Positions 48,131-55,247 of a DNA stretch of 64,000 nt are shown here, in pieces. The stretch spans positions 14,241 to 78,240 of the forward strand of contig JAIEFR010000004.1 in assembly GCA_029066845.1 (NCBI GenBank). Direction: 5' to 3'. The notes under the pieces were generated by a model, which was not told the origin of the DNA, searched no databases, and worked only from the letters and a program-made list of their open reading frames with translations. This DNA comes from Clostridia bacterium. Lineage in GTDB: Bacteria; Bacillota; Clostridia; Christensenellales; Borkfalkiaceae. A program made the translations under genes and the position numbers. Position 1 is the stretch's first letter, and each line of letters starts with the position of its first letter.

Positions 48131-48213
48131 CGCTTGTTTGCAAATCGTTTGACATATATGCGCGCGGTCGTTTATAATGCAAATTGTTGACAAATCAACA
48201 AATTGGTGGATAT

Positions 48214-51200
48214 ATGAAAAAAATCATTTACCTTTTAAACTTCCTGCTTCTGGCGGCGATAGTCGCGCTTGACGTACTGCTGATACTCGATCCGACGGTA
48301 GTGCTCAAAAGCACGGCAAGCGCCTGCTTCGTACTCGTGGCAATAGTCAACTTTGCGTATGCTGTCAGGCTGGGCGCAAAAAAGCTGTTCCCCGTGCTTA
48401 TGCTGCTGGGCTGCGTGTTCGCAATGGTAGGGGACGTCGTAATCTATTATTCGGGCGACCTCTATTTCATAACGGGCGCGGCTCTGTTTGCCGTGGCGCA
48501 CGTATTCTACGTTGCTGCGTACTTTGCGCTGTACGGCTTTCACCCCGCCGACCTGCTCGCCGCACTCGGCGTGTTCGTTCCCTCGGTGCTGGTTATAACG
48601 CTCGCGCCCATATTCGATTTCGGCGGAATACTTATGGAGGTTGTGTGCATAGTCTACGCCCTCATACTTTCGCTTATGGTCGGCAAGGCTCTTGCCAATC
48701 TCAGAAAGGGAACCGCGCTCAGCGCCGTAATCGCCGTCGGCAGCATACTTTTCTTTATCTCGGACTTTATGCTGCTTTTGAACGTATTCGGCACGGTGCA
48801 CAGAGTGCCGCGCATACTCTGCCTTGCAACTTACTATCCCGCGCAGTTTATGCTTGCGTTCTCGCTCATACTCTTTGCGGAGCGCGGTATGAACATTTTC
48901 AAAGCGGCGTATTGCATAATTTTCCAGACAGTGTTAAAAATCGCGCTGCCCCTTCTGCCTTATAAGGACCCCAAAATTATCGAAAAGGTAGGGGATATTC
49001 CGCAGGTATTAAAGCAAAACGCAAAGAGCCGCCCGCTCGTCGTGACGGACAAAACCATTCGCGGACTGGGGCTGACCCGCGCGCTGGAAGAGGCTATTGC
49101 GGCGGCAGACCTCAACTGCACGGTGTACGACGGAGTAGTGGCAAACCCCACCACGGACAACGTGGACGAGGCGTTGAAGCTATATAAGGAAAACGCTTGC
49201 GACTGCCTTATCGCATTCGGCGGCGGCTCGCCCATAGACTGCGCAAAGGGCGTGGGCGCACTTATCGCCCGTCCCGAAAAGACGCTAGGCAAGCTCAAAG
49301 GAATACTCAAGGTCGGCAAAAAAATTCCGCTGCTCATAGCCATTCCCACAACGGCGGGCACTGGCAGCGAAACCACGCTTGCGGCTGTTATTGTCGATTC
49401 CGTAACCCGTCACAAGTACGCAATAAACGACTTCCCGCTCATTCCCGCATACGCAGTACTCGACGAGGCGGTAACGGCAACTCTGCCCAAGCACGTAATT
49501 TCCACCACGGGTATGGACGCTTTAACCCACGCGGTGGAGGCGTATATAGGCAGGGGAGGAAACACTTCCACGCGCACCGACGCGCTGGAGGCGGTAAAGC
49601 TGGTCTTCGAAAATCTGCAGGCTTCGTACGACGGCGACAGAGCTGCGGCAAAGCAAATGCTCATCGCTTCCCACAAGGCGGGCAGAGCCTTTTCCAAGGC
49701 GTACGTCGGCTACGTGCACGCGCTCGCCCATTCGTTGGGCGGCAAGTATAACGTTCCGCACGGACTTGCAAACGCCGTAATTCTGCCCACCGTGTTGCGC
49801 GAGTACGGAAAGGCGGCGCACAAAAAGCTGTGGAAGATAGCCGTCTATTGCGGACTGGTAGAAAAGACCGCGCCGTATGCTCAGGGTGCGGAAGCTGTCA
49901 TAAGCAAAATCGAGAAGTTGAACGAAGGTTTCGGCATAGGCAAGACCTTCGCGCAAATCCGCCGCGGCGATATTTACGAGCTTGCGACCTACGCCTACAA
50001 GGAGGCAAATCCCTTGTATCCCGTGCCCGTGCTGTGGGATAAAGACAAGCTTATGGAAATCTACGAAAAGCTGCGCGGCGAGAACGTTGACGAGGAGGAT
50101 ATTCCCACCATAATAAACAACCAGCGCGCCTATTTCGCAAGCGGCGCAACGCTGGATATAAAGCACCGTATGCGCAGATTGAAGGCGTTATATGCAGCAA
50201 TCAAAGCCAATCTGCCCGCATTGCACGAGGGGCTCAAAGCCGACCTCGGCAAGAGCGCAACCGAAAGCTATATGTGCGAAACGGGGCTGGCAATGAGCGA
50301 GCTTTCGTATATGATAAAGCACCTCAAAAAATTCGCAAGAGCAAAAAAGGTGACTACGCCGCTCGCGCAGATGCCTTCCAAGAGCTACCGTCTGCCGTCG
50401 CCATACGGAACGGTGCTGGTTATGAACCCGTGGAACTATCCGTTCCTGCTTTCAATAGACCCGCTCATCGACGCGGTTGCTGCTGGCAACACGGTGGTGT
50501 TAAAGCTCAGCGCGTATTCGCCAAACGTCAACAGGGCGATTAAGGAGGTCATCGACGGCGTGTTCCCTCCCGAATACGTGACGGTGCTTTTCGGCGGCTC
50601 GCAGGTAAACACCGCGCTTATGAAGGAAAAGTTCGACTACGTTTTCTTTACCGGCAGTAAGAGGGTGGGCAAGCTCGTGTACGAAAGCGCGGCGCAAAAT
50701 CTCACGCCAGTCACTCTGGAGCTTGGCGGCAAGAGCCCTTGCATAGTTGACCAAACGGCGAATATAAAGCTTGCGGCAAAGCGCATTGTATGGGGCAAGT
50801 TTTTAAACCTCGGCCAGACCTGCGTCGCGCCCGACTATATCTATTGCGCGGAGAGCGTGCACGACAAGTTGATAGCCGAAATCAAAAAGCAGATTATTGC
50901 GCAGTTCGGCGAAAGTCCGCTGGATAATCCCGCATACGGCAAGATTATAAACGAAAAGCATTTCAACCGCGTGTGCGCTTTGATTGATAAAGACAAGGTC
51001 GTTCACGGCGGAAAGACAAATGCGGAAAAACTCAAAATAGAACCTACCGTGCTCGACGGCGTAACGCACGAGGACGCGGTTATGCAGGAGGAAATTTTCG
51101 GACCAATTCTGCCCGTACTCACGTACAAAGAAGAGGGGGAAGCGGTAAGGTATATCACGCAAAACGACGCGCCGCTTGCCTTCTATATTTTCTCGTCGGA

Positions 51201-51465
51201 TAAAAAGCGGATAAAGAAGCTCACTTCGCAGACGGGCTTCGGAGGCGGCTGCGTAAACGACGTGGTAATTCACCTTGCAACGCCGTATATGCCTTTCGGC
51301 GGCTTCGGCGCAAGCGGTCTGGGCGGCTATCACGGCAAGGCCGGCTTCGAAACTTTCAGCCACTATAAGAGCATAGTAAACAAGTCAACGCTAATCGATT
51401 TGCCTATGCGCTACCAGCCGTACACCAAAACCAACGAATACCTGATTGAAAAGTTTTTAAAGTAA
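48214..51465 (+). CDS. Trifunctional fusion: YhhN-family (lysoplasmalogenase-like) membrane domain - iron-type alcohol dehydrogenase - ALDH3-type aldehyde dehydrogenase
   Basis: YhhN: VFAMVGDVVIYYSGDLYFITGAALFAVAHVFYVAAYF and GSILFFISDFMLLLNVF; ADH: FGGGSPIDCAKGVGAL, IPTTAGTGSETT, DALTHAVEAYI, HALAHSLGGKYNVPHGLANAVILP; ALDH: VMNPWNYPFLLSIDPLIDAVAAGNTVVLK, FFTGSKRVGK, TLELGGKSPCIVD, NLGQTCVAPDYI; single uninterrupted frame. Confidence 0.9.
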   Translation: MKKIIYLLNFLLLAAIVALDVLLILDPTVVLKSTASACFVLVAIVNFAYAVRLGAKKLFPVLMLLGCVFAMVGDVVIYYSGDLYFITGAALFAVAHVFYVAAYFALYGFHPADLLAALGVFVPSVLVITLAPIFDFGGILMEVVCIVYALILSLMVGKALANLRKGTALSAVIAVGSILFFISDFMLLLNVFGTVHRVPRILCLATYYPAQFMLAFSLILFAERGMNIFKAAYCIIFQTVLKIALPLLPYKDPKIIEKVGDIPQVLKQNAKSRPLVVTDKTIRGLGLTRALEEAIAAADLNCTVYDGVVANPTTDNVDEALKLYKENACDCLIAFGGGSPIDCAKGVGALIARPEKTLGKLKGILKVGKKIPLLIAIPTTAGTGSETTLAAVIVDSVTRHKYAINDFPLIPAYAVLDEAVTATLPKHVISTTGMDALTHAVEAYIGRGGNTSTRTDALEAVKLVFENLQASYDGDRAAAKQMLIASHKAGRAFSKAYVGYVHALAHSLGGKYNVPHGLANAVILPTVLREYGKAAHKKLWKIAVYCGLVEKTAPYAQGAEAVISKIEKLNEGFGIGKTFAQIRRGDIYELATYAYKEANPLYPVPVLWDKDKLMEIYEKLRGENVDEEDIPTIINNQRAYFASGATLDIKHRMRRLKALYAAIKANLPALHEGLKADLGKSATESYMCETGLAMSELSYMIKHLKKFARAKKVTTPLAQMPSKSYRLPSPYGTVLVMNPWNYPFLLSIDPLIDAVAAGNTVVLKLSAYSPNVNRAIKEVIDGVFPPEYVTVLFGGSQVNTALMKEKFDYVFFTGSKRVGKLVYESAAQNLTPVTLELGGKSPCIVDQTANIKLAAKRIVWGKFLNLGQTCVAPDYIYCAESVHDKLIAEIKKQIIAQFGESPLDNPAYGKIINEKHFNRVCALIDKDKVVHGGKTNAEKLKIEPTVLDGVTHEDAVMQEEIFGPILPVLTYKEEGEAVRYITQNDAPLAFYIFSSDKKRIKKLTSQTGFGGGCVNDVVIHLATPYMPFGGFGASGLGGYHGKAGFETFSHYKSIVNKSTLIDLPMRYQPYTKTNEYLIEKFLK

Positions 51466-53514: not shown

Positions 53515-54516
53515 TTACTTGGTCATACCTTCCTGAACGGCAACCGCAACTGCAACAGTAGCTCCCACCATAGGATTGTTGCCCATACCGATGAGACCCA
53601 TCATTTCAACGTGGGCAGGAACGGAGGAGGAGCCTGCGAACTGTGCGTCCGAGTGCATTCTTCCCATCGTGTCGGTCATACCGTAGCTGGAAGGACCTGC
53701 GCCCATATTGTCGGGGTGAAGCGTTCTGCCCGTGCCGCCGCCGGAAGCAACCGAGAAGTACTTCTCGCCGTTCTCATAGCACCACTTCTTGTAGGTGCCC
53801 GCAACGGGATGCTGGAAGCGGGTGGGGTTGGTGGAGTTACCCGTAATGGAAACGGTAACGTGCTCGAGCTGCATAATCGCAACGCCCTCGGGAACGTTGT
53901 CCGCGCCGTAGCACTTAACTTTCGCTCTGGGACCGTCGGAGAAAGCAACGGTGTCAACCACCTTAACCGTCTCGGTGTAGGGGTCGAACTTGGTTCTCAC
54001 GTAGGTGAAGCCGTTAATTCTGGAAATGATATAAGCCGCGTCCTTGCCCAGACCGTTGAGGATAACGCGCAGGGGCTTAACCCTTACTTTGTTTGCGTTC
54101 TCGGCAATTTTAATCGCGCCTTCCGCAGCCGCAAAGCTTTCGTGACCTGCAAGGAAGCAGAAGCAGTCGGTTTCTTCGGAAAGGAGCATTGCGCCCAGAT
54201 TACCGTGACCTAAGCCGACCTTTCTGTTTTCGGCAACCGAACCGGTAATGCAGAAAGCCTGCAAGCCGATACCGATAGCAGCCGCAGCGTCGGCAGCCTT
54301 CGTGCAACCCTTCTTGATTGCGATAGCCGCGCCTACGGTGTAAGCCCAGACTGCGTTTTCAAAGCAGATGGGCTGGGTGCCGCGAACTATCTTGTCGCAG
54401 TCAACGCCCTTGGAAAGGCAGATGTCGCGGCATTCCTCAATCGATTTAATGCCGTACTCTTTCAATACGCCCAAAATTTTCTTTTCTCTTCTCTCATATC
54501 CTTCGAAAAGTGCCAT
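53515..54516 (-). CDS. GGGtGRT protein family, unknown function
   Basis: VASGGGTGRTLHPDNMGAGPSSYGMTDTMGRMHSDAQFAGSSSVPAHVEMMGLIGMGNNPMVGATVAVAVAV. Confidence 0.85.
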   Translation of the reverse strand: MALFEGYERREKKILGVLKEYGIKSIEECRDICLSKGVDCDKIVRGTQPICFENAVWAYTVGAAIAIKKGCTKAADAAAAIGIGLQAFCITGSVAENRKVGLGHGNLGAMLLSEETDCFCFLAGHESFAAAEGAIKIAENANKVRVKPLRVILNGLGKDAAYIISRINGFTYVRTKFDPYTETVKVVDTVAFSDGPRAKVKCYGADNVPEGVAIMQLEHVTVSITGNSTNPTRFQHPVAGTYKKWCYENGEKYFSVASGGGTGRTLHPDNMGAGPSSYGMTDTMGRMHSDAQFAGSSSVPAHVEMMGLIGMGNNPMVGATVAVAVAVQEGMTK

Positions 54517-54518
54517 AA

Positions 54519-55247
54519 TCAGTCAACCTCCTTGTCCGTTCTGGGGTCGATGTGCTTAACCGCACCCTGTTCCTTGGTATATCTGCCGTAAGTGCCGACA
54601 GACTTCTCGTAAGCTTCGTTAGGCGTAAGACCCTTCTTAATGAAGTCGGTCATCTTGCCGAGCGAAACGAATTTGTATCCGCAAACCTCGTTGTTCTTGT
54701 CGAGAGCGAGGGAGAGGACGTAGCCTTCAGCCATTTCCAGGTATCTCACGCCCTTAGCGGCGGTGCCGTACATCGTGCCCACCTGCGAGCGCAAGCCCTT
54801 GCCCAGGTCTTCCAGTCCCGCGCCTACGGGCAGACCGTCGTCGGAGAAAGCCGACTGCGTTCTTCCGTAAACGATTTGCAGGAACAACTCTCTCATTGCC
54901 GTGTTGATTGCGTCGCACACAAGGTCGGTATTCAGAGCTTCTAAAATGGTCTTGTGGGGAAGAATTTCCGCCGCCATAGCCGCCGAGTGGGTCATACCCG
55001 AGCAACCGATGGTTTCAACCAGAGCCTCCTGAATTATGCCGTCCTTTACGTTGAGCGTAAGCTTGCACGCACCCTGCTGAGGGGCGCACCAGCCGATACC
55101 GTGCGTAAGACCTTTAATGTCCTTGATTTCCTTTGCCTGAATCCACTGTCCTTCCTCGGGGATGGGAGCGGGTCCGTGTTCAAACCTGCCGGAAACACCC
55201 TTGGCAACGCAAATCATATTTTCGACGTCTTTTGAATACTGCATCAC
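54519..55247 (-). CDS. NifU/IscU-like iron-sulfur scaffold-type protein paired with GGGtGRT protein
   Basis: GIGWCAPQQGACKLTLNVKDGIIQEALVETIGCSGMTHSAAMAAEIL; adjacent (2-nt gap) to the GGGtGRT gene. Confidence 0.75.
   Translation of the reverse strand: MMQYSKDVENMICVAKGVSGRFEHGPAPIPEEGQWIQAKEIKDIKGLTHGIGWCAPQQGACKLTLNVKDGIIQEALVETIGCSGMTHSAAMAAEILPHKTILEALNTDLVCDAINTAMRELFLQIVYGRTQSAFSDDGLPVGAGLEDLGKGLRSQVGTMYGTAAKGVRYLEMAEGYVLSLALDKNNEVCGYKFVSLGKMTDFIKKGLTPNEAYEKSVGTYGRYTKEQGAVKHIDPRTDKEVD

Follow-up and report, generated by a model that had tools for sequence, protein, structure and literature searches.

Only recently was the synthesis of plasmalogens in anaerobes traced to PlsA/PlsR, and the literature searched yielded no route by which bacteria break plasmalogens down. 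The closest described enzymes for the cleavage step are the YhhN/TMEM86 lysoplasmalogenases (YhhN of L. pneumophila, Rv1401 of M. tuberculosis, human TMEM86A/B), single-domain proteins that convert lysoplasmalogen to a glycerophosphobase and a fatty aldehyde (PMC9052158). In TMEM86A, K43, G81, D82, H104, G182, S189, D190 and Y213 are proposed as catalytic, most of the eight being backed by mutation (PMC11994398), and the standard assay adds yeast alcohol dehydrogenase (ADH) and NADH, which trap the aldehyde (PMC9052158, PMC11994398). An iron-type ADH and an aldehyde dehydrogenase (ALDH) are known on one chain in AdhE, which has the order ALDH then ADH and an acylating ALDH. Among class-3 ALDHs, the fatty aldehyde dehydrogenase FALDH (ALDH3A2) is anchored to the membrane by a C-terminal helix.

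The window (the whole 64,000-nucleotide stretch analysed, from a genome of 1.56 Mb that is 99% complete) contains one open reading frame that joins YhhN, iron-type ADH and class-3 ALDH, hereafter the trifusion (Table 1). It opens with an ATG, although an in-frame TTG at 48184 is a possible alternative start, ends in a TAA at 51463–51465 and has zero internal stops. In a profile search with the 1083-residue protein, all three parts scored far above the Pfam cut-offs: YhhN (residues 38–218, E = 3.2e-22, 79.5 bits against a cut-off of 25.6), Fe-ADH (259–417, E = 4.5e-42) with ADH_Fe_C (431–619, E = 1.3e-40), and Aldedh (624–1054, E = 1.4e-90). The original prediction of a three-domain fusion in one uninterrupted frame is thus borne out, with its domain borders correct to about 20 residues, and no description of this architecture was found in the literature searched, as it had supposed. 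A chance reading frame is excluded by the domain scores and the conservation. Same-frame trifusions occur at 15 other loci and rule out an assembly chimera, a frameshift or a lost stop codon as the cause. We conclude that the trifusion is real, intact, conserved and repeatedly assembled from known families. The AlphaFold model (mean pLDDT 86, pTM 0.49) places eight helices (residues 2–222) and a further helix (228–247) ahead of two soluble enzymes; at this pTM, domain packing or a channel cannot be read reliably from it. Elsewhere in the window, at 53515–55247 on the minus strand, two adjoining reading frames resemble NifU-like/GGGtGRT iron-sulphur proteins, judged by reading the sequence alone.

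Table 1 Features of the trifusion gene and the evidence for each.
Feature	Residues	Position in window	Strand	Basis or remark
Trifusion reading frame, YhhN – iron-type ADH – class-3 ALDH	1–1083	48214..51465	+	1083 aa; same order in 15 other loci
YhhN domain, eight predicted TM helices	1–222	48214..48879	+	Pfam PF07947, residue check, AlphaFold
Amphipathic helix at ADH N-terminus	226–247	48889..48954	+	Conservation, AlphaFold
Iron-type ADH domain	259–619	48988..50070	+	Pfam PF00465 and PF25137; FucO and Zymomonas ADH2 relatives
Class-3 ALDH domain	623–1083	50080..51462	+	Pfam PF00171, PDB relatives, junction check

The YhhN part shares with the characterized lysoplasmalogenases its family, its eight transmembrane helices, all eight catalytic residues (counterparts K32, G73, D74, H96, G176, S183, D184 and Y207) and most of their spacing, the D-H (22), G-S (7) and D-Y (23) distances, three of five intervals, being equal to those of TMEM86A. 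What sets it apart is its covalent link to ADH and ALDH and its place in a separate YhhN clade. Exactly eight helices are modelled, from 2–25 to 197–222 and mostly with pLDDT 82–96, and this even number would put both ends on the same side of the membrane, as cytoplasmic dehydrogenases require. No PDB match to this part was found by sequence. In an alignment of 30 fused YhhN copies, each of the eight residues is kept in 29–30, with pairwise identity at a median of 40% and a minimum of 22%. With these features, the YhhN of the window is probably an active lysoplasmalogenase. The same genome encodes a second, divergent, stand-alone YhhN (locus L157, 2208–2945), and another member of the genus has a different YhhN fusion, in which YhhN is followed by a Y_phosphatase3 tyrosine-phosphatase (L160, 2640–4157; PF13350, E = 3e-59).

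The ADH part is of the FucO type by both sequence and fold, sharing with E. coli FucO and Z. mobilis ADH2 the Asp-His-His-His metal ligands; D435, H439, H502, H506 and H516 are present and invariant across aligned relatives. Unlike FucO, its family carries a conserved N-terminal amphipathic helix ahead of the FucO-alignable part, with the consensus RxYCRxFQxxxKxALPxLPYRxP. This helix occurs in nearly every family member, fused or unfused (R 99%, Q 100%, P-x-x-P-Y 99%), and its presence in unfused ADHs suggests that a membrane-borne aldehyde substrate predates the fusion. At residue 235 (about 48916) the window copy has Ile in place of the 99%-conserved Arg of this helix, which the near relatives L034 and L035 keep.

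The nearest solved structures to the ALDH part, by sequence and fold, are S. aureus AldH, ALDH3A1 and FALDH (38–46% identity), with which it shares the catalytic Cys (C870) and the general-base Glu (E836), both invariant across aligned relatives. Its anchoring would differ from that of FALDH, stemming from YhhN and the ADH helix. Because this Glu is hydrolytic, the ALDH should yield a free fatty acid and not acyl-CoA. The original prediction had described the Asp/His ligands of the ADH and the Cys and Glu of the ALDH as intact, had placed the ALDH in the ALDH3/fatty-aldehyde class and had called the domain order the reverse of that in AdhE, and each of these points agrees with the residues, the structural relatives (human ALDH3A1 and FALDH among the closest) and the Pfam order. 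Kinship with AdhE itself is excluded by the domain order, the catalytic Glu and the score of the NCBIfam AdhE model on the window protein (251.8 bits, below the cut-off of 951). The genome also has a separate AdhE-like reading frame of 879 aa.

Across the fetched loci, the trifusion (16 loci, the window included) proved to be one state among several operon and fusion forms, which replaces the picture of a lone trifunctional protein. YhhN-ADH fusions were found at 14 loci, ten with ALDH adjacent and four with no ALDH in the stretch, one of the latter (L099) being truncated by the contig end. ADH-ALDH fusions without YhhN account for nine loci, five of them Atopobiaceae, with L041 and L048 cut on the upstream side. 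At 58 loci, mainly Lachnospiraceae, ADH and ALDH are separate but adjacent; three neighbouring genes for ADH, ALDH and YhhN occur at three loci (L066, L190, L193), and YhhN adjoins ALDH at one (L189). When 392 genomes of the class and 399 of the phylum were sampled evenly, YhhN in fused-length frames appeared only in the window's own taxonomic order. An 882-aa frame in one genome (G528) was rejected as a fusion, as its additional stretch looks open but non-coding and neither ADH nor ALDH turned up within it. Among 27 other genomes bearing the ADH/ALDH pair or part of it, YhhN is present in 4 and absent from 23, and its absence beside the pair in most Lachnospiraceae identifies it as an add-on. 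Those Lachnospiraceae that bear the pair lack YhhN but in most cases do have a match to the PlsA family (PF09989), and the modules thus combine freely across genomes.

Two further genes recur around these loci: a MarR-type regulator just upstream of the ADH/ALDH genes at more than 20 loci (for example L109, 5432–5998), and, immediately ahead of the fusion or the ADH in some nine relatives, a C45/CBAH-type Ntn hydrolase with an N-terminal membrane anchor (for example L038, 738–2012; L043, 4729–5988; L162, 2470–3792). Neither is near the window gene, and for the hydrolase no match in the window's genome and no PDB relative by sequence were found. That it is a deacylase supplying the lysolipid is a guess.

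On quick trees, where parsimony counts do not distinguish gains from losses, the ADH-ALDH state changes four times in each of the ADH, ALDH and concatenated trees, and the YhhN-ADH state changes 10 times in the ADH tree and 8 times in the concatenated one. Forcing all ADH-ALDH fusions into a single clade was 432 log units worse (p-AU 6e-52, 49-row set), and a single origin of this fusion is rejected. It falls in four places: the main trifusion clade, to which the window belongs; L043, which sits among forms with a YhhN-ADH fusion plus ALDH; L176/L177, from another genus of the same family; and Atopobiaceae. Two ADH-ALDH forms (L044, L045) nest within the trifusion clade, where loss of YhhN may explain them. 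In the YhhN tree, a single clade (99*) unites the fused and operon copies and excludes most stand-alone YhhN, and 7 copies without nearby ADH or ALDH fall inside it.

One full trifusion comes from a metagenome-assembled genome named Mycoplasmataceae (G449; L047/L165), on a contig of 26% GC. It has four in-frame TGA codons, each at a Trp position of the other copies (TGA = Trp), and the adjoining genes, which we take from their sequences to encode ParC, a GTPase, NadD-HD and a nucleosidase, use TGA and no TGG; together with the GC content, this excludes contamination. Its ADH and ALDH fall within the trifusion clade on a long branch of their own; the placement of its YhhN is not secure. As the trifusion occurs in 1/97 genomes of this family, the mollicute, a type of cell without a cell wall, apparently gained it by lateral transfer.

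With moderate confidence, we read the trifusion as a membrane-anchored multienzyme that degrades lysoplasmalogens; activity and channelling, like cofactor, chain length and direction, are inferred. The eight-helix YhhN would hydrolyse the vinyl-ether bond of lysoplasmalogen in the cytoplasmic membrane, releasing a glycerophosphobase and a long-chain aldehyde. The ADH, which its own amphipathic helix would hold against the inner face of the membrane, would reduce the aldehyde with NADH to a fatty alcohol, and the class-3 ALDH would oxidise it with NAD+ to a free fatty acid. Acting jointly, the two could turn two aldehydes into one alcohol and one acid in a redox-neutral net reaction, which would suit a fermenter. 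This reading is supported by the many combinations in which YhhN is joined or adjacent to ADH/ALDH, and by the ADH and NADH chemistry of the standard assay, which is that of the trifusion's own ADH. Against it, several fusion-bearing genomes lack the PlsA family, the window gene has no known linkage to a phospholipase A gene, and the pair-bearing genomes that lack YhhN imply a different aldehyde source there.

The lysoplasmalogen could come from the cell itself, its host, the diet or neighbouring bacteria. A look for plasmalogen synthesis genes, as the original prediction advised, found a PlsA/PlsR-like pair in the window's genome, unlinked to the trifusion (L155, 989 and 420 aa). The pair, PlsA/PlsR-like in domains and size, is a DUF2229 protein with two BadF-type domains and a PlsR-sized gene downstream; no NCBIfam PlsA/PlsR model matched. 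Where the trifusion would degrade, PlsA/PlsR would synthesize, at the other end of one lipid pathway. A second cluster (L156), of small DUF2229/HGD-D/activase-like subunits, is not such a pair. Within the window's genus, each of the 37 genomes searched has a PlsA-family (PF09989) match, and their own lipids would be a ready source. This argues against the view that the trifusion mainly detoxifies or salvages foreign lysoplasmalogens, membrane-lytic lipids supplied by host, diet or other bacteria, and disarms the aldehyde, rather than serving the cell's own turnover. There are nonetheless several points for that role. Five genomes (G331, G346, G449, G450, G454) have no PF09989 match, and since three of them carry YhhN-ADH fusions (G331, G346 and the mollicute), the lysoplasmalogen need not be home-made; some carriers probably draw on an exogenous substrate, and a lack of plasmalogens in the organism, which the original prediction had named as a refutation, would not overturn the reading. 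The trifusion was moreover acquired by a wall-less kind of cell. M. tuberculosis YhhN acts on a host lipid, there being no endogenous plasmalogens, and protects M. smegmatis spheroplasts, which have no wall, against lysoplasmenylcholine (PMC9052158). We regard detoxification as a serious possibility, though not the one we would back; it concerns the role and shares the chemistry of the multienzyme reading, so the two overlap.

Other alternatives bear on the chemistry or the product. YhhN could have lost or changed its catalysis and serve as a membrane anchor that takes ADH/ALDH to dissolved fatty aldehydes of any origin, as the pair without YhhN in most Lachnospiraceae, the helix that the ADH already bears and the divergence of YhhN, the fastest of any part, might suggest (63–70% identity to the window copy in many trifusions, against 71–82% for ALDH). 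However, an anchor needs none of the eight catalytic residues that persist through divergence to 22% identity, and we consider this unlikely. The separateness of the fused YhhN clade and the amidase-like C45/CBAH-type hydrolase, which hints at an amide-linked lipid, would fit cleavage of a different aldehyde-yielding lipid ahead of the same ADH/ALDH steps; yet the catalytic residues are identical and the characterized YhhN enzymes in the literature searched are all lysoplasmalogenases, making another substrate improbable. Finally, the frame might be an operon in disguise, with internal translation starts giving separate YhhN and ADH-ALDH products. Re-initiation is possible in the window copy, where the ancestral ADH start ATG (48889) persists with GGAG six bases upstream, but its ADH/ALDH junction lacks any ATG with a ribosome-binding site (L039, L040 and L043 retain one), and at least seven trifusions (L036, L037, L038, L043, L070, L175, L178) have no ATG, GTG or TTG at the old ADH start. 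With internal starts lost in much of the family, a single polypeptide is the likely product and separate products seem very unlikely; for most of the main clade at least, selection probably maintains the joined form.

Returning to lysoplasmalogen degradation by one chain, the repeatedly evolved YhhN-ADH-ALDH fusion is a concrete candidate for a bacterial plasmalogen breakdown route. On this route the aldehyde is predicted to end as alcohol and acid, not as acyl-CoA, and the existing coupled assay is directly applicable to the fusion. It also hints at a function for the unfused ADH/ALDH pair of Lachnospiraceae, a far more common arrangement that has the same ADH helix and often an adjoining MarR-type regulator. 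Tentatively, and with slightly less assurance than an even chance would warrant, we propose a one-protein plasmalogen-catabolism machine of anaerobic gut bacteria, in which cleavage and redox-neutral aldehyde disposal would share one membrane-bound chain, fused several times independently and passed laterally to a wall-less mollicute.
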